A DNA stretch of 64,000 nucleotides from Crossaster papposus (taxonomy: Eukaryota > Echinodermata > Asteroidea > Velatida > Solasteridae). Below, piece by piece: positions 50,201 to 64,000 of this stretch. Position 1 is the stretch's first letter. The number at the start of each line of letters is the position of its first letter. A model generated the notes under the pieces. It did not search any database and had not been told where the DNA came from. It saw only the letters and a program-made list of their open reading frames with translations. The DNA is taken from contig JBAIAA010000450.1 in the NCBI GenBank assembly GCA_037893245.1, positions 1-64,000 on the forward strand. Reading direction: 5' to 3'. The position numbers were made by a program, and so were the translations under genes.

Positions 50201-53200
50201 CCACAACGCTGGCTATGCATTGATGACCATTCCTTTTCTTACTTTCCTCTCTCTACTTTGCCAGGTTGCACATATGTGGACGGTAACCTGGAAGTGAAGT
50301 TACTGAAACAGACACACTATGACATGTCCTTTCTCAAGGACATACGGGAGGTGACGGGCTACGTCTTAATCGTCTACAACTACCCAGAGGTGATTTCCTT
50401 CCCCAACCTCCGTGTGATCCGCGGCACAGAGCTGTATGACAACAATCTGGCGCTGTACGTGGCCATCACGTACCACACTAGGCTACCGGAGGTTGGGCTC
50501 AGGCTCTTGCAGTTTCCCAAACTACACGGTGAGTACTAGGCTTGGAAACCTCCATTTGGAAACTGTACGGTGTGCTGTCTGGCTAAACTGCAGGTTACAG
50601 GCCAGAGGCCAATTTCATAAAGCCCACAAATTTGCTTAGCACAACAAAGTTGTGCTTAGTAAAAACAGGTTACCAGCCAAATCTCCATGATATTTTCATG
50701 CTAAGCAAGCAAAAACAAGCTGAGTACAAGTCACAAACAATAAACATCATCTGAACATTTGGTTAGTAATGACCTTTTTTTTTTTTCAAGGAAGAATGTT
50801 CATGCTAAGTACATTTTAGTGCAGCTCCATGCAATTGGGCTCTGGTATATCAGTCAGCGTCAAAGGTGTTTTATATCATTATAGGGCATGGCGGCATTAC
50901 GTTATCCGGAGAAAACATCTTTTCATTAGCACGTACTCTATGCTTTCTTTCGGTTGCTATGCGTCACCATTCAGCACTCGATCCAGACTCGAGAACCATT
51001 CAGTTTTATAAAAATGGGTCTGGAAACGAGATAAGGGGACTTGAGAAGTCCTGAATGGCTGCACTTACCTATTCCTACGCTCGACATGAATCAATTAGAA
51101 CTTGTACGACAGTCTGTTTTAATTCAGAAAATGGAATAAATTATGGCAAAATGTTTTCATTTTCACTCGTAGAGATCATAAAAGGCAATGTCAAATTTGA
51201 AGATAATCGGGACCTGTGTTACGTTCAAACTATCGACTGGACCGACTTGCGTGAGGATATTGTCCCCTTTTACTCAGGTCATGGCTTGTCCTGCACGGAG
51301 GGTAAGTTGGAAAGTTGAAGTTAATCGTATTAATAAGGACAGTCTGACAAATATTGTTAAGTTTGCGAGTTTTTAGTTTTTAATTTTGAATGAGATTTGA
51401 AGGTTTGCATGGTGAAAAGGCAATTAGACATTGTTTGCCGAAGCACTGTGTGGTAATTTTTATTTGTGAGTTTGTGTGGTTAAATTTCATTGCGAAAAAT
51501 ACATTTCTTTTCAACTTTTTTGTTTTTTTTCTCTCTAGCAATTACATTCATTTTTTAATTGACATGGACAGAAAAATAAAACATTGGGTTCGTGTTTAGT
51601 TACTGAATTATTACTTTGTACTCTGTAAAGTATTTGGCTGCCGGCCAATTGTTTCTTGCATTGGGTAGGCTGGTACCCATCCCGCACAATAAGCGATGAT
51701 GTACACGTACAGACTGGGATCCGGTCTGTTGTACTCAAATCAAACACCTGTTTAGAGGGTTGCATATATGCCCAAACGATGATTAAAGCATACATCAATT
51801 TAGATATAAATCGTACAAGGAAAAAATTGAATTTGTTGAAGAGCTCGGGTAACTTTAACCCTTCAACTGCTGCTATCCATTTGCAAATGTTGTATTTCGG
51901 AAGATTATGAGTTGACTGGCATGTTCAACCTGGGGTAATACTTTATGTGGGAATGATGTAACAGGGTAAATTATGTTGTGAGTAGTAGTAACTTTACAAA
52001 GATACAATTATTTCTCAAACCACTTTTTTGTTTATTTTTTGTTTTACCCTCACAGAGGATAAATGTGCCTCAAATTGCTCCGGTGGATGTTGGGGCCCTG
52101 AACCTGATATGTGCCAAGTATGTAAGTAGAGACTGAGTTTGTTTGAGATGACATCTTCCGTGGCTGAAGGAAATTGTCTTTTTTTCTGTTATGCCAATCT
52201 GTTGTTTTGTACTGTTAGTATTTTATTTGCTACATATTCATTGTATTTTATACTTTTTACGTGGTTTAAGACGGGCTCATGGGCCTGGATACATTATTGT
52301 CTGAGCTGAAGACAAGGGTCATTTACAACATCCAGGTCCATCAGCCAGTTTTAAATACCGGCCAACCATCTACATTGTAATTTTCACATTCATATTAAAG
52401 GTCAAAACAAGTATCCATTTGTTTTACAAATTTGCTCCGATTTTGTTAAATTTTACCTGGTGTTTTGAGAAACACGCCCCACTGGCTATGTGCTTCACAC
52501 AATTCTACTAAAAATGTTCTTATATGGAGATTGACACGAGCATACCTACTGCTCGATGTTGAGTGACGTGGCTCAGTGTTAAAGGTGTTGTGACTATGAA
52601 ATAGACATCATTAGTACTGGTAATATCGCACACATGCTGTGTGGGCTTTCAACCAAAGAAAGATTTAAATGGACCAGACTTTACAGGTGTCAACATATTA
52701 ATGCAACAGTTAAAAAAAAGGTGTTTAAAACTAGTTGTTGTTTTATCGACTTTCACAAACACCCACATAACAATCACTTGAGTAAAAGAATAGGCTAAAC
52801 TGTCCTGTATATTTATAAATGATGTAATTAAATTGTGTGTTTGTTACTGCTTTTTTTCTTAAAAATTAACAAAAAATATTTTCTTTTTTCTTAAAAAAAA
52901 ATGTTCTTGCCAGTTACTCGTAAGAATTGCAGTGGGACCTGTGACTATCGGTGCAGGGGACCAACACAGGCTGACTGCTGCCACAGGAGCTGTGCTGGTG
53001 GCTGTACTGGACCGAGCAATAGCGAATGCTTGGTAAGAATAGTGGATTGGTTAGACTTCTTGACTTGGGAGGTAGTGGGTTAGAACCCGGAAAGGGAGAT
53101 TTGATATGTGGTAATGTTTGAGATTGTAGACCAAGTAACAAAGAGTTCGAACAAAAACTAATTTTTAATATTTAGTTATTCTGAATTTTCTTTGCAATTG

Positions 53201-56200
53201 CTCGCACACCTGTCAAGGGGTACAACTGATTCTCTGACCTTTGAACCAGACTACAAGAACATGATTGGTTTTCTTGATTTATCTAGCATCGTATGAACCC
53301 AAAACGTCAAACATGTCAGTGTAACAGTATTTGCTGTAACATACTAACCCTCAAATCTATCTATTTTTTTAAATTGCAGCAAAAGCAAACGATGTACATT
53401 TTAAATCCAAGTGTGTTTTTTTATAATTGGTAGGTTACTTTTGGGATAAAATGCTTTTGATCCTACATGCCCGTTAAGTTTGACCCAAACTGCAAGTGGT
53501 ATTTCTTTCATTTTTCAGGCTTGTCTGAAATTCACCATGGACGACCAGTGTGTGGAGGCGTGCCCACCCCGCACCTTGTACAACTCTGATACGTACCGGA
53601 ATGAGCCCAATCCTGACTTCAGATACGCCTATGGCTCCAGATGTTTGACCCAGTGCCCAGGTATAGGCTAGTCCGAGTATCATACTAAGGTTAACGGAGC
53701 CATCTCCGAACCAACGTCTGGACATGCACATTTATGCGACCCTGCGCACCAGCCAATCAAAGTTCACTGTGACGTAATTTAGAGCAGAAATCTGGACAAA
53801 GCCGCTGATTGGCCAATTTGGCTGCCATGTTTTTTGTAACATAGCAACAGAAGACGCGATATCGCGATTAAAACCCCCTGTTAAATGGACAGAATCTTGA
53901 GGTCAAGATGCAGGCTTGTTTGAATAATTAATCACCAAATCTGCTCGCATATCATATCCGCTCGTCGTTCAACCAGCGGATATTGTATAGGCAAGGTATA
54001 CCCACTCATCTCGTGTAATTCCTAAGATAACTTCCAGACTCGGTTTTATCATTAGTCTTGGTTCCAGGACGTCCTTCGCGGTGCGATGCAGATTGATAAA
54101 CCGTACAGTTATTCACCGGCCCTTTATGCCAACTTTTCAGTATTTTGCTCTGGAAAATTCTGAGCAGAATTGTGTGTGCAATTTGCATGCGTAGCGTGAC
54201 GTAGGCAATGTCTGGTTTCTGTACGTTAATTTACCTGTAAGTTACCCCAAATCAAGCAGAATCTGTGGGTGTTATAAAACAAATACCGCGTAGTTACTCC
54301 TTAATCTCGTGGTGTAGTAAAACTATTCTCCCTCGGTGATTCATGGAGCATTCCATTTCCCCCCCCAGAGGTGAAGCCGAGGGAAAATAGAACGTTCTAC
54401 CGATCACCGAGGGAAGCTAGTTTTACTACATCACTAGAATATTTGAATAATATATATTTGAATATATTTAAATAATATCCAACAATGGATATTAAACATA
54501 AATCATTGTTTGTTTTGTCAAAATGTGTACAGATAATGTACTAGAAGAAGGCGACAACTGTATCAACGATTGCCCGATAGGAACCATTGAAAGTGGAAAC
54601 AAATGTGTCGAATGTGATGGTCCATGCGCCAAAGGTATGTTAGGCTGACTGACAATTTATCACAGACCCAAATAGGATCATGCTATTAACATTCGCTTCT
54701 GTGCCAAATGGTATTTTTCTAGCATTGAATTACTATTTTTTCAGTGATGTGCTTAAGACTGCCAAGCGAAAACGGGAAATTAGAAAAGTTTCTGATTTTC
54801 ATTGAAGGTCATCCATGTCCTAATTTATTATCTTAACATTGTATCGCTCTGACTGTTCGCACCTAATACTGGGGCAGCCAAACAGAGTGAAGAAGATTTG
54901 TATCATTATGTGACCTGTCACCACGATATAAGAGTAAAGTCGGAAAAATTGAGATAGTGGTATTTTCAAATTCTTGAGAAAGAGAGCTTTCCAATGGTGC
55001 ATAACACTTCATAACCGTCTGCTATTGTACTGTCTACTGTTGTACCAAACTCATTTCTTTTTTTTGAAATTGTTTCTTTTGACTATTATAGAGTGTGAGG
55101 GTGCAGTCGATGCTTTGTACAAGCAAGACTTTGACAATGAAGCATTATCTAATTGCACCATCATCAGGAATAACATCTTCATCGGCACCGCTTCATTTGA
55201 AGGGTATATTTAGTCGTCATTGTCATTTTTATAAAGAAAATTTCCAAAGATGCGTCTCTAGTTTGAAAATTACTTTCTTTTTTGTTTGTAATTCGCAATT
55301 GGTGTGCACAAGCTTTGGAACGATGCATGGTTATCTCAAAAGAACAATTTTCAAATCTTGTTGTGTACCTGCGTAGTTGTCATACTGAAACTGGCTTATT
55401 CAAATTTTAAAGTGTATTTTTAATCTTATATTATTATTTTCTCGAATATACAGCATTTACCACGATAAAACTTCATTGTGTCTTTAGATTTTGAGCAAAC
55501 TTTGCTGCTTCAAACGAAAAGAAACAAAAATTGCACAACTACCAAATGGTATACTATTACCTTTAAGGGAATTTGTGTCATCGGTTTTCTCTCCAGGGAT
55601 GTATTTTTGGGGAAGAACGGTATCACCCTGGAGTTGCTGGAGCAACTGAGCACTGTGCAGGAGATCAAAGGCTTCGTGACGGTACAAGGCCATCATGCCA
55701 ACTTCCATAACCTCACCTTCCTACGAAACCTCAAGAAGATCTACGGCCGGAAGTTGTATGGGTAAGGACTAGGTGCAGTTTGGGGAGGCAGAGACGCGAG
55801 AGTTGGTTACGTTTATGTTAACGAATGACAAAATTATTCTTTAGGGAATAACAGTGTGAGGACCCGGTCCTTTACTGAGTGATAAAGACCGGGTTGGGGG
55901 ATGGCTACTGTCCCCAAACCCGTTCATTATCACACAGTGAAGACTGGGTCTCCACACTGTTATTCCCAAAGACTTTTTAACAAAATAAAATGCTCCAAAT
56001 TCTGTGACTTTTCTTTAGGCGATATTTCTAGACTTTTGTGTTCATGTTTAGGGGCCATATTCGTTTAAAAAAATATATTACTGATCTTGACCAATCAGAA
56101 GCTATTATCTTACCAAGGTATTTATGAATTGTATTTCAAGGAAGCGAGAGGATGCGAGAAGAAAGAGAGAGAGTTTGTTTAAGTTGTGATAATATCATGC

Positions 56201-57601
56201 TGAGACTATAAGGATGCCAAGACAGTATTATGTGATGAACACTTTCTTTTGCGACGTGCAAGTTACAGAGTTTTGTTCGTCGATATTTTTTTCTCCAAGA
56301 AACACACAAATTTAATAAAACAAGTGACATTAATTAAGAGAGCAAATGAATGGAAACGGATTTCCGTAGGTTTGTAGCAAAGATGAACTTGGGAGTTTTA
56401 GGGTTAAGGATGTTGATAGGAATGACACTGGAAATGGAGATTAAGGTGGATGAGAAATGTTTACATCATTTGAAGAAAGAAAAAAACTGTCGGAGTCGGA
56501 GAGACTGAGAGTTGAAGAACAGTACACAGAAACATGTCTAATAATCCGAATGAAAATGCAATATTACCCTGATTCATTACAGCAATATGTCTGATCCTTT
56601 TGTACCTACCCTACCACCTCCACACTTTTCCAGCATCGATGGACCCAAGCAGTATTCGCTGTTCATTAACAGCGACTCGATAGAGTCACTTGGGTTGACC
56701 TCTCTGGAGCGCATCAACAAGGGGAATGTTCTGTTTTACGAAAACCCCAACATGTGCTATGCTGCCGAGGGCATGTGGGAAAGTATTTTGAAACAGCCCG
56801 GCCCGGAAGCTCAAACGGTGGAGTTTTATGAGAATAAACCAGGGCAAGAGTGCAGTAAGTACCGGAAAACTCCATAACCTTGGCATGCACACGTACCGGC
56901 ATGACATCGGCCTGGAACCTCTTTGGGAAGAGTGGTCGATTGAGCTTCCTGGATTGTATTGGAATTCCTAGCTGCAACGTTTATTTCATGCTGAAAATGC
57001 AAAACATTTCTTAACAGGGAGAAATAGAGATTCCTTTTAATACTAAAAGCATAAACAAACAACCTGCTGCCAAAGTCTGAAATCACCAGGAACTGAACCT
57101 GATCTAAAAGATCTCGCACCATCGTTTTATTTTTATGACGTCCCGAATCTGCAGTTATTAAGCTTAACCCTAACAGTACCGAATCCTCCAATAATAATAG
57201 ACATTTGCAAACATCCTACGGAGTTAAGGTCATTCATGTTTGTATCTCAGCATGGAATGTTGCAGGGATTCCAATACAGCGAAGGTTGCCAGTAGATTGC
57301 AGAAACTTTGCATGTTGAATGATGTGGTACTAACCCGCGAATGTCTTTGTTTTCCTGGACGTATATCCCCCACTGTTGGCCGCATGAATGCGTTGTCGTT
57401 CCGATAGCAAACACTCTCTATCGGTCATGTCCTCGACTGTGCGGTCGCTCAATCTCATCAGTTTGCAATCCATTGAGCACGGTAACGTCAATATCAAGTT
57501 AAACCCGAAGTTGTGCTATGCCAAGGCAGAAATGTTCCAAGGGATAATCCACGAAGACGGAGAGGTCACGGTTGAGAGCAACCTTCGGGAATCTGCCTGT
57601 G
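23178..57601 (+). CDS. EGFR: EGFR/ErbB receptor tyrosine kinase, 5' part (span of all coding exons; partial)
   Basis: This entry is the overall gene. Joined coding segments: 23178-23283, 49932-50021, 50265-50528, 51173-51301, 52056-52121, 52914-53032, 53519-53660, 54533-54634, 55092-55203, 55597-55761, then either 56634-56854 or 57408-57601. The joined frame stays open with GT..AG introns throughout. The product is the extracellular part of a single-pass growth-factor receptor: signal peptide, L domain I, furin-like cysteine-rich domain II, L domain III. Family hallmarks visible are GYVLI and NLRVIRG in domain I, CWGPEP, DCCHRSCAGGCTGP and CPPRTLYN in domain II, and NPNMCYA in domain III. ErbB receptors bind EGF-like ligands at the plasma membrane, dimerise and signal through a cytoplasmic kinase; that kinase lies beyond position 64000. 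An insulin receptor is unlikely, because the domain II spacing and intron phases follow EGFR. Confidence 0.9.
23914..24226. mobile_element. Terminal-inverted-repeat element
   Basis: The left end GGTGCGTTCCAATCACATCG TGTTTCTCATG is inverted at the right end, CATGAACACGAGAAACACGA followed by CATTTAGAACG. The arms are about 30 bp with several mismatches. The interior is non-coding. It sits 630 bp into intron 1. Confidence 0.6.
24453..24477. repeat. Poly-G tract
   Basis: 18 G, one A, 6 G. A second tract of the same kind lies at 24637-24659, 160 bp away. Confidence 0.85.
24637..24659. repeat. Poly-G tract
   Basis: 5 G, one A, then 17 G. Confidence 0.85.
26470..26860. mobile_element. Family B MITE, diverged copy
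   Basis: TTATTATGAAATACCTTTA and GTGAATAAACAGTCTCAA match 42860-42915. CCAATTTGGTTCCCCAACTT and GAACACAAAACCAGG match 43115-43260. The termini have decayed. Confidence 0.55.
27640..27930. promoter_or_regulatory. Repeat-poor complex patch, possible enhancer
   Basis: A pyrimidine-rich run at 27664-27700 is followed by about 200 bp of unique, GC-richer sequence with CTAATTGG, GATAAAATTACC and GATTAAAC homeodomain/GATA-like words. No open frame of note. The regulatory role is a guess from composition only. Confidence 0.2.
28558..28578. repeat. Poly-G tract
   Basis: 21 consecutive G. Confidence 0.85.
28921..29033. mobile_element. Family A MITE, 3' part
   Basis: GGCGATCGCGATTTTGTAAA, AAGATATCTAGCGCAATAAT and the terminus TGCAAATGGTGTATCCTACA next to TTAA match 41290-41360 and 49500-49531. 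Confidence 0.6.
29034..31206. other. Intron 1 stretch without recognised features
   Basis: About 2.2 kb, AT-rich, no repeat family or gene supported. Confidence 0.4.
31207..31399. mobile_element. TIR element containing a tRNA-like sequence
   Basis: The left end CTTTTGAAATAAATCACTGA CT is inverted at 31377-31399 (AGTCAGTGATTATTTTAAAA AG). A tRNA-like segment lies immediately inside the left end. The element is about 193 bp and non-coding. Confidence 0.6.
31226..31297 (-). tRNA. tRNA-like sequence (probably pseudogene or SINE head)
   Basis: On the minus strand, CTCGGTGGTCAAGTGGTAAA contains a good A box (TGGTCAAGTGG), and GGTTCGAGTCC is a perfect B box. CTCGG near the 5' end pairs with CCGAG near the 3' end. 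An anticodon arm with loop CTAGAAA can be drawn (anticodon AGA). The acceptor stem has only five good pairs, and there is no long variable arm as a serine tRNA would need. Pol III transcription is plausible; a working tRNA is not. Confidence 0.4.
32908..33001. repeat. 94-bp inverted-repeat element
   Basis: Perfect 16-bp arms TTAACCCTAACTCCCT and AGGGAGTTAGGGTTAA flank about 60 bp. The arms include a TTAGGG word, but only once per arm, so it is not telomeric. Confidence 0.7.
33410..33428. repeat. (CT)n microsatellite
   Basis: About nine CT units; a polypurine run (minus in sense) follows at 33625-33668. Confidence 0.8.
34709..34888. mobile_element. Family C MITE, both ends present
   Basis: The ends GGCCCAATTTCAT (34711) and ATGAAATTGGCCCC (34874) are inverted. 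Internal TTGCTTAGTAAAATCAGCTT and TTACCAGCCACAGCTCCATG match 50640-50690. Confidence 0.7.
34889..39770. other. Intron 1 stretch
   Basis: Contains poly-C at 35593-35608, TACATGTA clusters at 37505-37840 and a C-rich run at 39079-39141. A 34-codon frame at 38465 with a good start context and hydrophobic middle was considered as an alternative first exon and not accepted. Confidence 0.4.
39771..40012. mobile_element. Family E MITE, both ends present
   Basis: It starts TAACCAGTTAGCGCCGGATG and ends CCGGCGCGAACTGGTTA, an inverted pair. Internal GACCGGAAATGCG and AAAATAATCCCG match 61350-61465. Confidence 0.7.
40013..40170. mobile_element. Foldback MITE abutting the family E copy
   Basis: The left arm AAATCCTCGTCATCTGATTG and the right arm CAATCAGATGACAGGGATTT are inverted, with GAGTGCA and TGCACTC continuing the pairing. 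It directly touches the right end of the family E element. Confidence 0.7.
41105..41448. mobile_element. Family A MITE, nearly complete
   Basis: It begins GAGGATACACCATTAGTAAT and contains GGATGCCGAGGAAAGCAAGA, GGGCGATCGTGTATTTTGT and ATCATTATTTACTTTC. The right end decays at TTTGCAAATGGCG. Same order as the full copy at 49165-49531, inverted relative to it. Confidence 0.65.
41588..41696. repeat. Family G hairpin
   Basis: TTTTCCAAACCCCAGCTTCG and the inverse ACTGGGTTTGGAAAA are about 110 bp apart. A second copy is at 61085-61197. Confidence 0.65.
42029..42050. repeat. Poly-C tract
   Basis: 22 consecutive C. Confidence 0.85.
42516..42751. mobile_element. Family D MITE, complete
   Basis: The ends GCAGGGATGTAGTCGAGTCC and GGACTCGACTACAACCCTGC are inverted over 20 bp with one mismatch. 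The interior repeats CAAGTCCCTGCA and GGACTTGTGAC words. This copy identifies the source of the minisatellite at 7583-7757. Confidence 0.8.
42822..43364. mobile_element. Family B MITE, complete
   Basis: It begins AAAGGTATACACCATTTAGC and ends GCAAATGGTGTACATGTAAA followed by AATATACCT and TTAA. About 540 bp, non-coding. Fragments are at 9490, 26470 and 53255. Confidence 0.7.
44137..44178. repeat. Poly-G tract with interspersed A
   Basis: 42 bp of G broken by two A and ending in TGG. Confidence 0.85.
44325..44390. mobile_element. Family C remnant
   Basis: GCCCAATTTCATGGAGCTGC and ATTTGCTTAGCATGAAAATG match the left end of the family. Confidence 0.5.
44668..44880. mobile_element. Family A MITE, 5' part, with CATGTA insertion
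   Basis: TTAA then AGGTACATGTAGGACACACC ATT shows the family end with six extra bases. ACTGACCTGTCAAAAGTTTT and GGATGCCGAGAAAAA follow. Confidence 0.6.
46168..46188. repeat. Poly-G tract
   Basis: 21 consecutive G. Confidence 0.85.
46386..46580. mobile_element. Family E MITE copy
   Basis: It starts AACTAGTTTGCGCTAGGATT and ends CCGACCCGAACTGGTTAA. CGAGCTGGTCACTGACAGAT matches 47756-47775. Confidence 0.65.
47695..47872. mobile_element. Family E MITE copy
   Basis: GCGAACCGGTTACTGACAGA, TATTTCCGGCCTTGCT and the end TGACGTGAACTGGTTAA define it. The left terminus is less clear. Confidence 0.6.
47873..49164. other. Intron 1 stretch
   Basis: No gene or repeat family was recognised. Confidence 0.4.
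49165..49531. mobile_element. Family A MITE, complete
   Basis: The left end AAAGTACGATACACCATTTG and the right end AATGGTGTATCCTACCT before TTAA are inverted. About 367 bp. It lies 400 bp before EGFR exon 2. Confidence 0.75.
49932..50021 (+). CDS. EGFR: EGFR exon 2: start of L domain I
   Basis: The acceptor TTTTGCAG precedes 49932 and the donor GTAAAG begins at 50022. The exon encodes VCSGNGNGVSS.. through LLKERFE and is phase 1 at both ends. VCSG matches the VCQG that opens mature human EGFR, and the LLKERFE end corresponds to the helix before the first conserved cysteine pair. In human EGFR this region is not interrupted here; the intron after FE is an extra position. The exon is 90 nt. 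The following intron is only 243 nt, has no stop in frame and is a multiple of three. Confidence 0.88.
50022..50264 (+). other. EGFR intron 2 (243 bp, stop-free in the receptor frame)
   Basis: The intron is bounded by GTAAAG at 50022 and TTTGCCAG ending at 50264. It is 81 codons long with no stop in the coding frame, so retention would insert 81 residues into domain I without a frameshift. The intervening peptide has no L-domain features and contains one TACCGGTA palindrome, so I treat it as intron. Confidence 0.75.
50265..50528 (+). CDS. EGFR: EGFR exon 3: body of L domain I
   Basis: The exon begins after TTTGCCAG and ends before GTGAGT at 50529, phase 1 to phase 1, 264 nt. The peptide contains CTYVDGNLEVKLL, YDMSFLKDIREVTGYVLIV and NLRVIRGTELYDNN, the repeated beta-helix strands of a receptor L domain. 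These align with human EGFR CEVVLGNLEI, YDLSFLKTIQEVAGYVLI and NLQIIRGNMYYENS. The human intron after SFLK (phase 0) is absent; exons 2 and 3 are fused there. Together exons 2+3 here total 354 nt, against 336 in human (from memory). Confidence 0.93.
50529..51172 (+). other. EGFR intron 3
   Basis: The donor is GTGAGT and the acceptor TTTCACTCGTAG. About 235 bp is a family C element (50606-50840). The rest shows nothing recognisable. Confidence 0.75.
50606..50840. mobile_element. Family C MITE in intron 3
   Basis: One end reads AGGCCAATTTCATAAAGC and the other ends GCAGCTCCATGCAATTGGGC, an imperfect terminal inverted repeat. Internal motifs such as GCTTAGCACAA and ATGCTAAGCA recur in copies at 34709-34888 and 7833-7965. 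It is non-coding and lies wholly inside intron 3 (50529-51172). Confidence 0.6.
51173..51301 (+). CDS. EGFR: EGFR exon 4: end of L domain I
   Basis: The exon runs from the acceptor ending CTCGTAG to the donor GTAAGT at 51302, phase 1 to phase 1, 129 nt (human exon 4 is 135). The peptide EIIKGNVKFEDNRDLCYV..IDWTDL..LSCTE aligns with human [26 protein letters not shown] ending in GSCQ. The NxxLCY motif that caps L domains is intact. Of two possible AG sites, only 51173 gives the conserved LHEII junction. Confidence 0.92.
51302..52055 (+). other. EGFR intron 4
   Basis: The intron runs from donor GTAAGT to acceptor TTTTACCCTCACAG. It is 754 bp of AT-rich sequence with no recognised repeat or gene. 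Confidence 0.75.
52056..52121 (+). CDS. EGFR: EGFR exon 5: start of furin-like domain II
   Basis: The peptide DKCASNCSGGCWGPEPDMCQ carries the CWG motif that opens the ErbB cysteine-rich domain (human [21 protein letters not shown]). The exon is 66 nt, phase 1 at both ends, against 69 in human. The alternative acceptor two bases on would give an immediate stop, which fixes 52056. Two donors overlap: GTATGT at 52118 and GTAAGT at 52122. Only 52122 keeps phase 1 and joins exon 6 correctly. N-C-S is a possible glycosylation site. Confidence 0.9.
52122..52913 (+). other. EGFR intron 5
   Basis: 792 bp from GTAAGT to TTCTTGCCAG. Nothing beyond AT-rich intronic sequence was recognised. Confidence 0.7.
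52914..53032 (+). CDS. EGFR: EGFR exon 6: cysteine-rich domain II
   Basis: The exon starts after TTCTTGCCAG and ends before GTAAGA, phase 1 to phase 0, 119 nt, the same length as human exon 6 from memory. The peptide has CDYRCRGPTQADCCHRSC followed by AGGCTGPSNSECL, aligning with human CSGRCRGKSPSDCCHNQC AAGCTGPRESDCL with every cysteine in place. KNCSGT is a further N-x-S site. Confidence 0.95.
53033..53518 (+). other. EGFR intron 6 with family B remnant
   Basis: 486 bp from GTAAGA to CATTTTTCAG. From about 53255 to 53410 it contains the 3' portion of family B (ACAAGAACATGATTGGTTTTC, AGCAAAAGCAAACGATGTACA), as also seen at 9490-9598 and 42822-43364. Confidence 0.65.
53519..53660 (+). CDS. 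EGFR: EGFR exon 7: domain II dimerisation arm
   Basis: The exon starts after CATTTTTCAG and ends before GTATAG, phase 0 to phase 1, 142 nt, equal to human exon 7 from memory. The peptide includes CVEACPPRTLYNSDTYRN and NPDFRYAYGSRCLTQCP, aligning with human CKDTCPPLMLYNPTTYQM and NPEGKYSFGATCVKKCP. In the crystal structures this CPPxxLYNxxTY hairpin is the dimerisation arm; both tyrosines (human 246 and 251, mature numbering) are kept. The receptor is therefore likely competent for ErbB-type back-to-back dimers. Confidence 0.95.
53661..54532 (+). other. EGFR intron 7
   Basis: 872 bp from GTATAG to AATGTGTACAG. It includes a long hairpin element at 54309-54434; the rest has no assignable content. 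Confidence 0.7.
54309..54434. repeat. Hairpin repeat in intron 7
   Basis: The left arm GTGGTGTAGTAAAACTATTC and the right arm ending TAGTTTTACTACATCAC are inverted. Inner arms CTCCCTCGGTGAT and ATCACCGAGGGA also pair. It looks like a small foldback transposon; no coding content. Confidence 0.6.
54533..54634 (+). CDS. EGFR: EGFR exon 8: end of cysteine-rich domain II
   Basis: The exon begins after GTGTACAG and ends before GTATGT, phase 1 to phase 1, 102 nt (human 117). The peptide NVLEEGDNCINDCPIGTIE and NKCVECDGPCAK matches human GSCVRACGADSYE and KCKKCEGPCRK, with the C-x2-C-x3-C pattern intact. It is slightly shorter than human between the cysteine pairs. Confidence 0.92.
54635..55091 (+). 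other. EGFR intron 8
   Basis: 457 bp from GTATGT to GACTATTATAG. No recognised repeat or gene. Confidence 0.7.
55092..55203 (+). CDS. EGFR: EGFR exon 9: start of L domain III
   Basis: The peptide ECEGAVDALYKQDF and SNCTIIRNNIFIGTASFEG aligns with human VCNGIGIGEFKDSLS and KNCTSISGDLHILPVAFRG. NCT is a conserved glycosylation site. The exon is 112 nt, phase 1 to phase 2. The donor GTATAT (55204) is weak, and reading through it would add two residues (Y-I) and stop at TAG 55208-55210. Phase 2 here matches the human exon 9 end. Confidence 0.9.
55204..55596 (+). other. EGFR intron 9
   Basis: 393 bp from the weak donor GTATAT to TTTTCTCTCCAG. It contains a stop three codons in. No repeats were recognised. 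Confidence 0.7.
55597..55761 (+). CDS. EGFR: EGFR exon 10: first half of L domain III (human exons 10+11 fused)
   Basis: The exon starts after TTCTCTCCAG and ends before GTAAGG, phase 2 to phase 2, 165 nt. The peptide contains LELLEQLSTVQEIKGFVTVQ and HNLTFLRNLKKIYGRKLYG, aligning with human [20 protein letters not shown] and HAFENLEIIRGRTKQ. Human uses two exons here (74 and 91 nt from memory), which sum to exactly 165; the intervening intron is absent. NLT is a possible glycosylation site. A 33-nt fragment of the start of this exon is found again at 59409. Confidence 0.93.
55762..56633 (+). other. EGFR intron 10
   Basis: 872 bp from GTAAGG to CACACTTTTCCAG, with a family F hairpin element filling 55842-56130. 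The rest is AT-rich with no gene. Confidence 0.7.
55842..56130. mobile_element. Family F foldback element in intron 10
   Basis: The arms GGGAATAACAGTGTG at 55844 and CACACTGTTATTCCC ending at 55967 are inverted, with GACCCGGTC and GACTGGGTC nested inside. Past the hairpin, TTGACCAATCAGAAGC and AAGGTATTTAT resemble the tail of the copy at 15511-15900. Confidence 0.55.
56634..56854 (+). CDS. EGFR: EGFR exon 11a: C-terminal half of L domain III (alternative a)
   Basis: The exon starts after CACTTTTCCAG and ends before GTAAGT, phase 2 to phase 1, 221 nt (human exon 12 is 200, same phases, from memory). The peptide KQYSLFINSDSIESLGLTSL then RINKGNVLFYENPNMCYA and PGQEC aligns with human [38 protein letters not shown] and ENSC. 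In human EGFR this region supplies several EGF contacts in domain III. A second exon with the same phases and related sequence follows at 57408. Confidence 0.93.
56855..57407 (+). other. Spacer between exons 11a and 11b
   Basis: 553 bp separating the two alternative exons. No recognised transposon lies in it, so the duplication is not obviously element-mediated. No obvious docking-site complementarity was found by eye. Confidence 0.6.
57408..57601 (+). CDS. EGFR: EGFR exon 11b: duplicated, probably mutually exclusive exon for L domain III
   Basis: The acceptor CGTTCCGATAG precedes 57408 and the strong donor GTAAGT starts at 57602; the exon is 194 nt, phase 2 to phase 1, identical phases to exon 11a. 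The peptide KHSLSVMSSTVRSLNLISL then SIEHGNVNIKLNPKLCYA and LRESAC repeats the exon 11a pattern with about 40% identity over the core (19 of 45 by hand alignment). The frame is open, and the structural residues (SL..L.SL, GNV, NP..CYA, final Cys) are kept. Splicing 11a to 11b directly shifts the frame and reaches TAA near 57500. It is 9 codons shorter than 11a, mostly before SL and before the last strand. The acceptor has a poor pyrimidine tract, which fits regulated use. A decaying duplicate is the alternative, but nothing in it is broken. Confidence 0.8.
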
Positions 57602-58221
57602 GTAAGTATGAACACCCTCCACGTCCCCACCTGAACCCCCACCCCCAATACCCATCCCCCACCCCTTGTGCATGTTTTTATCTTTATTTATCCAACGTCA
57701 CCACTGCAGGCCGGCTTACATTATGGTTGAAGGGAGACTGTGCTGTTATGCCAGCAATCCTGTTTAAACTAAATAAAACTGGCGACGGATTACAAAATAA
57801 AAAAATTCTGACGAAAAGGGCAATGGTGTTGCCCGGAAGATAAAGTCTAAACATGCAAGTTTGATAGTGTAAAAATAACAGTTTTCGACTGCAAAACAAA
57901 AGTCGTTTCACCTCAGTGGTTGCTTTGAAACAGTCTCCCCTATGCCACATAACAGTCACCATGTCCTATAAACCAGCATGTTTGCATGTATCAATAACTA
58001 ATAATCAACTACCAATCCTGAAATGTGCATTCCTTATGTTTAACACCACTTCACTGCCAGGTTGATTGCAGAGCTTTCTCCTTGTAGTGATATTTCACAG
58101 AGCAAACATTCCCTCTATGTATTAACTCAACAGTGTTCCGTGTCAATTTCCACAAAGAAATCTGCAGTTTCCTTATTATTCTCTGCATTATTTTTAGACT
58201 ATTTTTCACCCAAAAGTTTTA

Positions 58222-58242
58222 CCCCCCCCCCCCCCCCCCCCC
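58222..58242. repeat. Poly-C tract
   Basis: 21 consecutive C. Confidence 0.85.
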
Positions 58243-58568
58243 TTACGAGAAATCCTCAAAACTTGACATAACTTTTAATTCTTGAAGCTTGATCTGCCCT
58301 TGTGTGCAACTGCTAACAGTGCTGCATTGAGCTGCAATTTTCAAATCCTTCCCTTCAATTTAAAATAACCACATGTAGCAATACTTCCGATAGTACGCAC
58401 ATGATCTTAAAATCTTCCATCGCAAAAACGTAACCCCTTTTCTCGGCCACAAAATTGCAATTCTTAGGCCATCAGCCTGGGGGGGTTGGTCAGTATTAAA
58501 CGAGGGGAATATTGCTCATGGCAAGGTACATCATGTACATGTATGCACCCCTGTGGTTGGAAAACATG

Positions 58569-58733
58569 GGATAGCATTTCAGCGGTGGTAGCTATTTGGG
58601 TGTTACCACATTTGTTTAATTTTTTTTTAATGGCTGCCAATTTCCAAACAAGCATATTGGCAGACATTATAAAAAAAGAAATATAAAAGTGATAACACCC
58701 AAAAGCTACCACCGCTCTCCCTGCAAGGCTATC
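58569..58733. repeat. Long hairpin
   Basis: AGCGGTGGTAGCTATTTGGG and the inverse CCCAAAAGCTACCACCGCT pair over about 27 bp including TGTTA/TAACA. Weaker outer arms ATAGC and GGCTAT extend it. Confidence 0.7.
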
Positions 58734-59408
58734 ATACATTGTCCAACTCTAGTTGTGAATATCTTGCCAAAAATCACTATGAACATTACTCCTCTCGATC
58801 ATTTGATACCGGTGGACCAATTTTTGAACCGAGGCTGAAGGCCTATCTGTTCCTTTTTCCGTTGCCTGATTAGAAACTTCTGATTATTGTAAAGCAGCTT
58901 GCTCTACCGGGAACAAATCCCTTCCTTGCATTCCATCCAATCTTGCTCATCAAAGGGAACATAACCTTAAGCTCTCAGTCAGCCTGACTGTAAAGTGAAC
59001 ATCAAACTGAATAGGTGGTCTGTAATCCATACTGTTATTGATATCGGTGGGCGTGTTTCCTTCGGTACGGATCTAAATCCAGAGCCTTGGAACCAGGGGC
59101 ATGTTTTTTTGGCAATCCTAGACCAAGAGTTTGAAGTGGTGATACATTGGCTTATTTCAGTATTTGCTGAAGAGAAAGTTTCTTAACATACTCAACTTTT
59201 TACTGGCATTTGTTTCAAGTGACAACCAACCCCGACTGTTGGTTAAACCTTGATCAGAAAAGTCGCATGATCACGATACAACCGAGGTCGCTAAAACACC
59301 AGTCGTAGGACTAGTTAAAAGTTAACATAGAAACAGTTAACATCTGAAATCATTTTGTAAGTCGCCTTTTTTCAACCTCGCATCGATCTGGCTCTTGGGA
59401 AGTATCCA

Positions 59409-59441
59409 AGGGATGTATTTTTGGGGAAGAATGGTATCACC
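59409..59441 (+). pseudogene. 33-nt duplicated fragment of EGFR exon 10
   Basis: The segment matches 55595-55627 (acceptor AG plus the first 31 exon bases) at 32 of 33 positions. The single difference is C to T at 59432, which is silent (AAC/AAT, Asn). It encodes GDVFLGKNGIT and then diverges completely, soon reaching a stop. Upstream there is no good pyrimidine tract. It is therefore a relic rather than a working exon. Confidence 0.75.
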
Positions 59442-61084
59442 ATTTTCTGCTGTATGAACATCCTTTATAATAATGCCAAGGTCCAGATTTCCTTCATTTT
59501 GGATTTTTCATTAAAAGCTTCATAATAATTCTACTGCTTGCAATGAAGCTGTGACCTCACTGGCCTGAATAATGAAACCGTGGCCTGAAAAATGAACGCT
59601 CTGTGTTATAGGACAGTCAGGATTCCAGACCACTTATCGTGCCTGGTTGTGATTTCAAGCTAACAGATATCTGTGTTCTTGCAACCAGGCATCTGCACGA
59701 GTTGAACTGAAATTGTTTGCACATTTTTTACTAATTTGTTTTATTTTGTTTATTTATTTATTTTATTGCACGCATGTTTTTATTTTTTTGGCATCTTGGT
59801 TTGCAGAAATTAGTCAATAATACAGAACCACACGTTTAAAAGATTGACATTTCACGACATAAAACAGGCATACTTTTCCTTGGATCAGCTGAAAATTGAA
59901 AAACACTGTACAAGTCTTGCAAAGATTAGAATTTCCTAATTTTTTGTGGTTGTTAGTTCCAAGTTGCCAGCCTGTTAAAAAGACACTAACTTGCACTGTC
60001 AACTAAAAACAAGGGGGATTTAAAACATGCATATTCAACTCCTTAATTACAAATACTGTTCCCACCAATCGGTTTTTGTGTCTCTTGAAATTTTGTAATA
60101 CCGGTACATGAAAGGGTCATGACCTTTCATTTTCAATATAAATTGCACACTTCACCTTTTAGTCACAGTTTGTTTTTCACCATATTTTTTTGTGAAAGAC
60201 ACTTTAATATATTCAACCTTACCACATTTGAGTTCATTTTGTGTCAATTTTGTGGATCCTTATCTTATCATTGTTTTGTTTCGTTTTTTTGTTGTTCTTT
60301 TTTGAAGTAAAGTTGAATTGTTTGTCACTTTCCCATTCCCACTTTCCCATCGATTGTGGTATTTATTTCCAATGCGTCTTAACCAGAATATGTCATTCTA
60401 AGTGACAAATGTATCTGAATATCGCACATACAGATCAGTATAAGACATGCACATGTACATACAAGTACACAACTTTACACCATGCAAAACATCTAGGATA
60501 AATTCTTGAAATCTTGAAGACACTGCAGACAAAGTTGATTGCATTTTGCCTGTGCAAGCGTAGAATAACCACTAGTAATTTAGATGCATGAGAAATGAGA
60601 ATAAGATAATATGAAATGTATGCATTAATAAGCTACATGTAACAGGAATGGCTGCATCTTCGTAACTAAATGTAGTATTATGTCAGTATTCATTAATATG
60701 AGACCCAATTAAACAAATTAAAAAAATTATCTCATAGATTAGCAGACTTTTTGTAAGATTGGGCTCATATGTATGTAGTAACAGTGGTGCAGGCTTTATG
60801 GCTAATTTGTTTTGATATCTTGATCTTCAGATAAGAGAAATTGTTTTTTTCCTTATGCTTATTTCTGATTTTAGATCAAAGATCAGGCAAGAATGTTTGT
60901 TATAATGAAACATTTCAAAACGAAGTTGTTGACAAAGCCTGCATTACAGGATTAGGTTATGATAGAGAACCCAAGTGTAGTGTCACCTGTCTTTGTTTTG
61001 GTTGAAGTCTTTACACACTTAAGCTGTGCACATAAACCAGAATGCAATGTACATGGTACACTTTGGTACTCAATACAGTGCACT

Positions 61085-61197
61085 AGGGCCATTTTCCAAA
61101 CCCCAGCTTGGGCTCCTTTTCCGGCTCCGTCACCATTGCCAAACTGAATGAACAAAGCCAAAGACGAAAACGAAGCTGGGGATTGGAAAATTGCCCT
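61085..61197. repeat. Family G hairpin
   Basis: AGGGCCATTTTCCAAACCCC and the inverse GGGGATTGGAAAATTGCCCT. Same ends as 41588-41696. Confidence 0.7.
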
Positions 61198-61334
61198 GTT
61201 GTGTTTAACATGTCTTTGTACAAGACTATTAACTCCAACACACCACCAACCTATAACCTCGGTGTTTCGAAGCCCTACCCTTTCAGATCTGGAACCTAAA
61301 GTGTTATATTCCAGTCCCACATTGTAAAAAATTG

Positions 61335-61487
61335 CGGATAAACACGTCACGAGCAAGGCCGGAAATATCAGGGTGGGCTACCCACAGATGCCGGCTGAAC
61401 CCATCTCAGATCAAGGGTTGTGAATACAAAAATACGTGGTTGTGCCTGATCAATGTCGAAATAATCCCGACGCGAACTGGATTGGTT
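61335..61487. mobile_element. Family E MITE copy
   Basis: GAGCAAGGCCGGAAATATCA, CTACCCACAGATGCCGG and CCCGACGCGAACTGG match the copies at 4655 and 39771. Confidence 0.65.
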
Positions 61488-62273
61488 GGTGTTGTGTGGA
61501 GAATTAATTCGGAATAGTTATTTTTTGTAAAAGATTAAGACAGGTGAGACATTCTGAAATAAAATTCTGAATTCTTAAGACTTTTGGAACATCTGTGTGG
61601 GTAACGCTTTCAGAATGTCACACCGTCATGCACGTACTCATTTGGTTGAAAAGGCTGCAACCTTGGCACACTTACTGAGAACTCTCCCCACTTAATAATA
61701 ACGACCCATTTTCATAGAATTTGTTTTTCATAAATGTTATGAAGCGTGAAACCAACCTACATATGTTTACAGTTAATGAAGACAAAAAATGAAATGTCTG
61801 GTTTTGATTAAAAATTGTTGCGTGATCCAATCAAAAAAAAAAGAAGTAGACATTTATTTTAAAGGAGATATACTCCGAAATAAAAAATCTCTTCTTTTCT
61901 CTAAAAACATTTATTTACATGCAAGAAAGAAAACAAATTGAGGTGGAGAGTGTCAAGTTAACAGTCTTGTGTTGTAAATCTCTTGTAGTGATAACAAGTT
62001 TTTCAGGTGTTCTTGTTCCTGTAAATCATGATGAACCACATGTTTTTCCCTGATTCTGCTTTAAATTTATCTCAGTCCCAAAAAGTAGGACTAAAAATCT
62101 AAAATCTAAAAGAAAACAAATTATATTTAAAATATTATAATGTTAAAGACATTGGAGTCGATTCAGTTATTGGTCACTACATTTTATACATGAGATTTCT
62201 CCACAGTTAATTTCATCTTATCTATACGTGGTGGCAAACAAAAATGGACAAAGTGTGCTTTCGCCGCATTTTT

Positions 62274-62357
62274 CTGAAAGAAAAATGATACCAAGATAGG
62301 ATCTGGAGCTAAAACTACTGGACCAAATCGAGATTTCTTGGTATCATTTCTCTTCTA
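62274..62357. repeat. Inverted repeat
   Basis: AAATGATACCAAGA (62283) and TCTTGGTATCATTT (62335) with AGAAA-type extensions; loop about 38 bp. Confidence 0.65.
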
Positions 62358-63131
62358 GGAGGATTCTCCATCCATTGGTATTGGTAGTTTTGGGTGGTGG
62401 AGGTGTGTTTGTCTGTTTTTGTGTGTGTGTACCACCTTATATTCATTTATATATAAAACCAACTGAAGATATAGGCTTCAGATGGTTATGTATAGGCCTA
62501 CACATGTATCTACTGAAAATGCCCGAAAAAAAATTAATTTATGTGAATGAATACTAGTGCCTGATTGCCTGTGTAATGCCTAACTTTAATCATAATCATT
62601 AATAACCAAAGAAAACAAGTAAGAGTCTCCAACAGAGCTCCTGACCAATCAAGGGCAAGAGGTGAAATAAGAAAATAACAATTGAACCCATTTTTCACGG
62701 TGTCTGCAGGATTTTGCTCAAATGCAGCCTGTAATTTGTGTACAGGTTGGAAAGCAATGATAGTGTTGTGAATACACAATGTTTGAAATGGGCAAAATTA
62801 AATACAAGCCACTGAATAGTTTCAGCAATTTTAATCATAAATGATACACGATTACAAATAAAAAATCTGAAGAAAAGAAAAGTAAATGGTGCAAAGCATT
62901 TAAGGAATTAAGTTCAAAATTTCGTCTGTCAGTAAAACTGCATTGTGAAACAGACACCTGCCCTGTAAGCCAGTTTGGAAACTCTTACCCCCTAACTGCA
63001 CCCTTAACTGTACCCTTCCAATGCCTGACAAGACTCTGACTGTCGAGTACTGATGTGCCTGATGCAGATTGCATGCGTCAAGAATCCCATTAGGCCCCAT
63101 GTACATGTAACCCCCCCCCCCATATACTTCA

Positions 63132-63277
63132 AGCAAATGCGAATGCAATGCGAATTTGACGTCACGTAGCATTTTCTGCGAAGTTAGTTGGAGTTGAAAT
63201 GTGTTTAACATTTGCAAATTGGCAGAGCGAAAACCTTGCCTGACGTCACAAATTTGCGATTGCGTTCGCATTCAAGC
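63132..63277. mobile_element. Foldback MITE with TGACGTCA in both arms
   Basis: The left arm GCGAATGCAATGCGAATTTG and the right arm CAAATTTGCGATTGCGTTCG are inverted, each with a TGACGTCA palindrome at the inner edge. Confidence 0.65.
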
Positions 63278-64000
63278 TGATTACGAAATGGCCTTGAAAC
63301 CTTCAATCAACATCCCTCCAACCCCCAATTTCCCCCTTCCCATTCCACAGGGTTTGCCACAGTTTCCCCACCCGCTGGAAAAGTATCAGTCAAAACCAAA
63401 TGCACCTTCTCTCGTTCGCAGTCATTATTCCAGGCCCAGTGTTTTTTCACTGAGCCAGGAAGCAGAAAACAGTATTCAGCGTATTTCGTTTATTAATCCA
63501 ACTTGCGACTACCGGTAGTCACAACTAAATTTGCATTAAATTGTGGCCAGTACCCACCCAAATAGTTCTGGCTAAGTAACATTTCAGAGCTGAGCAGCTA
63601 CAAGAAATTTATTGCTTGAACAAATTTCATCTCCCCCGAAAAAAATAAAAAAATAAAATAAAAATAAGAAAAGTTGTATTCCCTCCCATTTTGTTTAAGC
63701 GTGATATTGATTGGACTTTTATCACCAATTTCTTTTTTTATTATTTAGTTTTTTAAACTATCAAAAAATTGTATTTTCTCCAAAAATCTGTGGCAAGCCC
63801 TGCTTCTTTCCCAGCAGGTATTCTCAGTTTCCTGGACGGCCGTCTCTTCTTCACATCGTCTCCTGCCGACGCCTTCTAGCTCCCTCGCTAAACTGCCTTC
63901 CTGCTGTCTTAAAACAAAACCAAAACTAGACGAGCTTATGCCAAACGCTATAAACTTGTGTCTGTGCTGAGCGGGGCATATTTGGGAATTTAACCTAACA
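63278..64000. other. Non-coding end of window
   Basis: An open frame runs to 63518 but starts inside the foldback element and has no family signature. AT-rich intronic sequence follows. Confidence 0.4.

Follow-up and report, generated by a model that had tools for sequence, protein, structure and literature searches.

A candidate pair of mutually exclusive exons in the ligand-binding domain III of an ErbB/EGFR gene of Crossaster papposus

The window analysed here comprises bases 1-64000 of the 326,809-base contig JBAIAA010000450.1 (C450) of the 1.02-Gb genome assembly of the asteroid Crossaster papposus, and carries on its plus strand exons of the extracellular part of a gene of the ErbB/EGFR family. 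Two neighboring exons of this gene, 11a and 11b, both encode the second half of domain III. They are likely to be a tandem-duplicated pair used in a mutually exclusive manner, so that the choice between them would change the ligand pocket of the receptor. The span of the pair given in a preliminary description of this DNA (56634-57601) is exact, and the separation of 553 nt reported there matches the modelled exons.

Two exons for one half of domain III

Exons were located with tblastn, using human EGFR as the query; C450 was read up to position 114000, with two additional 4-kb pieces. The matches follow one another in order on the plus strand, starting with domain I at 50265 and reaching the kinase at 72887-75499, and the kinase exons are 41-71% identical to the human ones. 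Matches to the families PF01030 and PF14843 agree with the tblastn order, and together with the EGFR matches reveal the ErbB/EGFR succession of L1, furin-like, L2, domain IV, and tyrosine kinase parts within 50265-75499. The gene on C450 is apparently an intact ErbB/EGFR gene. The exon pair is arranged as follows.

56634..56854, plus strand: exon 11a, second half of domain III, 221 nt, phase 2 in and phase 1 out (PF01030, 29.7 bits; human EGFR 411-465)
56855..57407, plus strand: intron between 11a and 11b, 553 nt, from the splice model
57408..57601, plus strand: exon 11b, alternative second half of domain III, 194 nt, phase 2 in and phase 1 out (PF01030, 24.7 bits; human EGFR 410-475, full length)

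Both frames are open. The four splice sites are of the AG/GT type, with donors GCA/GTAAGT in 11a and GTG/GTAAGT in 11b (the stroke marks the exon end). Each exon takes up GG, the last two bases of exon 10, and passes one base to exon 12. The phases, open frames, and canonical splice sites described earlier are therefore reproduced by the exon model, and the identity of about 40% becomes 38% (25 of 65 aligned residues), while 55% of aligned bases differ. Each single-exon peptide, 65 residues long for 11b, scores above the Pfam cut-off for PF01030 (21.8 bits). When compared with human EGFR by phmmer, 11a alone gave a whole-chain E-value of 4.6e-10 and 11b alone 6.4e-08, values that add weaker matches elsewhere in EGFR, chiefly in domain I; the domain III stretches by themselves gave 5.4e-05 (11a, residues 411-465) and 0.0017 (11b, residues 410-475). 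Exon 11b fits EGFR domain III better than domain I (21.4 versus 11.1 bits), the alignment scores against human EGFR are 98 for 11b and 97 for 11a, and the cysteine positions C446 and C475 are retained in both exons. A profile search of six-frame translations, covering C450 44001-80000 and most of the homologous stretch of contig C657, which holds a second copy of the gene (see below), revealed no third exon copy above the inclusion threshold; only 11a, 11b, and their domain I counterpart were matched on each gene copy.

To define the permitted combinations, the four possible joins of exons 10, 11a, 11b, and 12 were translated. The joins 10-11a-12 and 10-11b-12 are open. When both exons are included (10-11a-11b-12), a stop is met inside 11b (TAA at 57500-57502), and when both are omitted (10-12), translation stops immediately (GGC TGA). 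A productive mRNA must therefore hold exactly one of the two exons. The preliminary description had pointed to the TAA near 57500 and to the use of one exon per productive mRNA, which proved correct; the stop in the 10-12 join, which it had not mentioned, adds that one exon has to be used. In the proposed mechanism, either 11a or 11b would be spliced between exons 10 and 12, joint use or omission would lead to an early stop, and each choice would give the receptor its own second half of domain III and hence its own pocket, in which the C-terminal portion of an EGF-like ligand would sit.

According to excerpts of a molecular dynamics study, the pocket for EGF residue Leu47 in EGFR consists of Leu382, Phe412, Val417, Ser440, Ile438, and Ile467 (PMC4282322). 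By alignment to human EGFR, to which these contacts belong, five of the six positions (412, 417, 438, 440, and 467) fall within exon 11, in agreement with the earlier claim that this exon carries EGF contacts. In 11a the pocket would be formed by Tyr412, Asn417, Leu438, and Tyr440, position 467 being not confidently alignable, and in 11b by His412, Met417, Asn438, Lys440, and Glu467. The two exons thus differ at all four positions alignable in both, and the 11b pocket is much more polar, with polar or charged residues where human EGFR is hydrophobic. For a comparison in which teleost Egfrb is named, a supplementary figure legend reports radical substitutions at positions 409, 412, 417, and 438 (PMC2834686), indicating that this face of the receptor can change in evolution. 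We infer that both exons enter mRNA by a regulated choice and that the resulting isoforms differ in ligand binding; the two isoforms may bind different ligands.

Constraint on the two exons and a second copy of the gene

Long-term constraint was assessed with a neutral-decay control, in which 11a served as the starting sequence and the full or half 11a-11b divergence was placed on a neutral branch (2000 copies in each setting). The frame stayed open in 61 and 107 of the 2000 runs, respectively, and in neither setting did any run reach the similarity of 11b to human EGFR (0/2000 in each). It follows that 11b has been under selection for most of its life, and the score of 11a against EGFR, nearly equal to that of 11b, indicates the same for 11a. 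The sequences support an old tandem duplication of an exon in EGFR domain III, with long-lasting constraint on both copies. The duplication and the one-exon frame logic of the earlier interpretation stand. The earlier view of 11b as the doubtful copy does not, because 11b is the more conserved exon between the two gene copies described below, and it is 11a that is left without a sound donor in one of them.

DNA searches of the genome were conducted with approximately 40 best candidates scored per search. A short repeat lies within the 11a-11b intron (57155-57238), with at least 36 other places in the genome matching it at 76-89% identity. The region beyond this repeat matched only contig C657, on the opposite strand. 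C657 was read at 686001-764000, and all 19 modelled exons were found there. AG acceptors and GT donors are kept in all of them except for the modelled K1 acceptor, where, as judged by eye, an AG three bases further on fits both copies. The homologous stretch extends over C450 29073-82595 and C657 740829-690176 and contains large insertions or deletions (C450 29570-47660 is mostly without a match inside it); beyond its ends, only short scattered pieces match. Probes of 4 kb taken at 107, 200, and 318 kb of C450 matched just short multi-copy pieces. Because homology is confined to this stretch and the three outside probes have no partner, the C657 copy is probably a recent paralogue and not the other haplotype. 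It may instead be an unpurged haplotype of the same gene, as would be suggested by another L-domain gene that is kept in near-identical pairs (99.5% along 3341 bases; 97.0% along 1942 and 99.0% along 829). RPS6 was found at a single locus only.

On C657, the donor of 11a is interrupted by a 956-bp element (724659-725614) whose 17-base ends are perfect inverted repeats and which has a TA target duplication. At least 71 genome pieces, itself included, match this element (952-base query; best 40 of 1341 candidates scored). The insertion converts the donor from GTAAGT on C450 to GTACCG, keeping the GT and losing the remaining consensus. On a donor matrix built from 17 other donors of this gene, the C657 11a donor scores -3.3, versus 6.3 to 11.5 for the 19 C450 donors. 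The far end of the element recreates a good donor (score 10.4); if it is used, the element is carried into the mRNA, and an in-frame stop appears seven codons past the last cysteine of 11a. The C657 receptor is probably made with 11b only. Whether this transposon represents a fixed loss or a polymorphism depends on C657 being a paralogue or an allele.

A different pattern of change between the gene copies is observed for the two exons. Exon 11a differs by seven substitutions (six amino acid changes and one synonymous) and by one codon lost on C657, and 11b by one difference in 194 sites, an amino acid change. The number of changes in 11b is lower than in the two flanking introns (1/194 versus 54/1360; one-sided Fisher p 0.005). 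For the other exons, the counts are 35 synonymous changes (511 sites) and 32 codons with a nonsynonymous change (1847 sites), taken from 16 exons with K5 aligned in part and K6 left out. The comparison of the copies rests on few changes. Taken over both time scales, deep constraint is seen for 11a and 11b, and recent constraint is visible for 11b only. An extra conservation of the 11a-11b intron, suggested by a first alignment (96.7% versus ca. 88% for others), was dropped: with gaps set aside, the median identity of noncoding 500-base windows is 93.8%, and 6 of 179 such windows exceed the identity of the window starting at 56800.

Candidate signals for the choice, and alternative explanations

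The following motifs of the 11a-11b intron could take part in the choice between the exons.

56883..56903, plus strand: two GCATG motifs, which start 29 and 45 nt after the final base of 11a
57250..57254, plus strand: GCATG, starting 158 nt before 11b
57310..57314, plus strand: GCATG, starting 98 nt before 11b and forming part of TGCATG
57328..57334, plus strand: TACTAAC, candidate branch point of 11b, its A 75 nt upstream of the exon; also on C657
57382..57386, plus strand: GCATG, starting 26 nt before 11b

The RBFOX core GCATG is present five times in the 553-nt intron, where the gene's other introns would lead one to expect 0.7, and no 5-mer is more enriched there (uncorrected p 0.0008). 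In 279 overlapping windows of equal size, drawn from intronic sequence elsewhere in the gene, the count never reached four, and five copies were present in 1 of 2270 windows over 114 kb on both strands (the 100-base grid missed the intron itself). Two copies are located just past 11a and three before 11b, and all five are kept on C657, where the intron is 96.6% identical anyway. According to excerpts of a review, RBFOX2 bound downstream of an exon leads to inclusion, and bound upstream, to skipping (PMC10835012). The placement of the motifs, read by this rule, predicts 11a in the presence of RBFOX and 11b in its absence: an RBFOX-type factor would bind downstream of 11a, favoring it, and upstream of 11b, repressing it. 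This is the weakest step of the proposed mechanism. An RBFOX-like RRM, split over two exons (87% and 59% identity), is found on C524. As to the branch point, TACTAAC within 150 nt upstream occurs at 11b alone among the 19 modelled exons. The 103-nt AG-free zone before 11b was also considered as a special feature and rejected, since the zones of FU2, K2, and E9 are as long (118, 113, and 103 nt); only TACTAAC is left, and its support is weak.

A broader scheme, which we regard as tentative and less likely than not, is that two isoforms with different pockets are controlled by an RBFOX-type switch and are now being sorted by a recent gene duplication, C450 keeping both exons and the transposon locking C657 to 11b. 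If true, a splice switch would have been caught midway in turning into two genes. The C657 copy, probably limited to one of the two forms, constitutes a natural test.

Several observations weigh against the mutually exclusive pair and its proposed control. The pair is known from the genomic sequence of a single genome. Introns of 553 nt are too long for steric hindrance between splice sites, and this length, together with the ordinary GTAAGT donors, speaks against exclusion by steric means or by the minor spliceosome; eight inverted repeats are candidates for a competing RNA structure or may be chance occurrences. The GCATG enrichment was found post hoc and would fail correction over all 5-mers, the 400 nt that follow 11b contain three further GCATG motifs (one as a TGCATG, 69 nt from the exon), and the search with the RBFOX-specific family PF12414 gave no match. 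Between the gene copies, no constraint on 11a is visible relative to the flanking introns (7/218 versus 54/1360, p 0.38), so 11a may be losing function, and the direct contrast of 11a with 11b is only suggestive (p 0.07).

The last points bear on a reading in which most mRNAs rely on 11b alone and 11a is a disappearing relic that still has an open frame and good splice sites on C450, is no longer selected, and is already damaged on C657. Besides the intron-like rate of change, the lost codon, and the interrupted donor, this reading draws on the ratio of nonsynonymous to synonymous changes in 11a (6:1 versus 32:35 in the other exons; p 0.11, or 0.06 with the lost codon) and on the length of 11b, which is nearer to that of the human exon. 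However, 11a on C450 has sound splice sites, an open frame, two cysteines, a conserved Trp, and an EGFR score practically equal to that of 11b, which argues that it was constrained until recently, and many of its changes may belong to the damaged C657 copy. In a visual comparison with 11b and human EGFR, an Arg-to-Cys change and the loss of the codon look derived on C657 and Met39 on C450; the others could not be placed. We consider a relic 11a unlikely. The converse, that 11b is a pseudo-exon, a dead duplicate never or hardly spliced, appears highly improbable: its pyrimidine tract is weaker than that of 11a (0.55 versus 0.82 at -25 to -4), but it has 64 open codons, a full-length match to human EGFR, a strong donor, and the only TACTAAC near a modelled acceptor, and both the single change in 194 sites and the neutral-decay runs stand against it. 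We give slightly less credence still to 11b as an alternative last exon, with read-through of its donor producing a soluble receptor that is cut short and ends in a few new residues. A 151-aa open frame (57388-57843) does pass through the donor, but that donor is strong and conserved, and the read-through tail diverges on C657 within approximately 20 residues of the donor, whereas exon 11b itself is kept.

Gene context and comparison with known systems

The remaining exons and introns around the pair are as follows.

50265..50528, plus strand: domain I exon, first half of L1 (PF01030, 58.1 bits; tblastn to EGFR, 1.6e-13)
51173..51301, plus strand: domain I exon encoding the second half of L1, corresponding to exon 11 of domain III (tblastn, 0.005; profile, 26-28 bits on the two copies)
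52056..52121, plus strand: furin-like exon (weak tblastn, E above 1; placed by order and splice sites)
52914..53032, plus strand: domain II (furin-like) exon (tblastn, 7.5e-08)
53519..53660, plus strand: domain II (furin-like) exon (tblastn, 1.5e-07)
54533..54634, plus strand: domain II (furin-like) exon (weak tblastn, E 9.1; placed by order, frame, and splice sites)
55092..55203, plus strand: exon 9, start of domain III (no match of its own; placed by position, splice sites, and open frame)
55597..55761, plus strand: exon 10, first half of domain III, ending in phase 2 (PF01030, 31.7 bits)
57602..64000, plus strand: part within the window of the 8.7-kb intron from 11b to exon 12, which lies beyond the window
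C450 66305-66437, plus strand, outside the window: exon 12, from the splice model

An 85-nt exon at C450 66563-66647 completes domain IV and restores the frame between exons 12 and 13, as seen in a join limited to the final two bases of exon 12. Furin-like repeats beyond the usual domain IV are present at C450 70917-71860, so the receptor stalk may be extended. In the intron after 11b, positions 59409-59441 repeat the start of exon 10 over 33 bases (32/33 identical); an exact 20-base search of C657 matched exon 10 alone, and the copy may be a recent small templated insertion. Elsewhere in the assembly, the other L-domain gene kept in pairs lies on C549/C711 and C1097 and is a candidate insulin-receptor-like gene, its pairs being 97-99.5% identical versus approximately 94% for the ErbB introns. 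Further L-domain matches were observed on C1120 (252256-253027 and 294997-295332), one of them with an internal TGA. Contig C8 (5,301,754 bases), with intronless COX1-type genes among closely packed frames and a G+C content of 0.47-0.49 in two pieces (window, 0.39), resembles a bacterial chromosome, from a symbiont or a contaminant. The mitochondrial contig C1841 (16,330 bases) carries a COX1 frame, next to a COX2 frame, that is free of stops under six of the seven genetic codes tried, code 2 being the exception. The AAA, AGR, and TGA codons of this COX1 frame coincide with conserved Asn, Ser, and Trp, in line with NCBI code 9, which is used by echinoderms and flatworms, and the protein itself looks like that of an echinoderm.

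Vertebrate EGFR/ErbB receptors are the closest comparison, being of the same gene family and sharing the same part of domain III, with C446 and C475 kept. The human EGFR gene has a single exon at this part of domain III, and no alternative copy of the vertebrate exon was described among the literature matches listed. More generally, no description of such an exon pair for EGFR/ErbB, invertebrates and echinoderms included, was seen among the open-access matches listed, in line with the earlier remark that no ErbB case is known.

The nearest parallel in mode of action is the IIIb/IIIc pair of FGFR1-3, which likewise consists of mutually exclusive, tandem-duplicated exons in the ligand-binding ectodomain of a receptor tyrosine kinase (PMC5703972). 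The earlier comparison with this pair holds for the way of working and fails for kinship, since the FGFR exons are unrelated and encode Ig domain III, not an L domain. Excerpts of a survey that covers FGFR splicing across bilaterians place the origin of the pair in the chordate lineage, describe a single constitutive exon for the non-chordates studied, and report that sea urchin and other Ambulacraria use a different, non-homologous alternative exon upstream; EGFR does not occur in that survey (PMC5703972). Homologous neighboring exons swapped within a protein are also the subject of a survey of human tandem-duplicated exons, whose main text does not contain EGFR or ERBB (PMC9741552); it leaves FGFR unnamed as well, so its silence is weak evidence. 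Exons 4a/4b of OGDH are mutually exclusive and have distant branch points, as stated in excerpts of the report on them (PMC7969005), though OGDH is a metabolic enzyme and the branch point of 11b is a candidate one.

Mutually exclusive exons are thus a known kind of arrangement, and what would be new here is the receptor family, for which none was found described. ErbB receptors are usually thought to diversify through gene duplication and an increase in the number of ligands. If 11a and 11b are indeed alternatives, two receptors would be made from one gene in an animal with very few ErbB loci, and a splice choice in the ligand pocket would represent a third route of ErbB diversification, parallel to that of FGFR.

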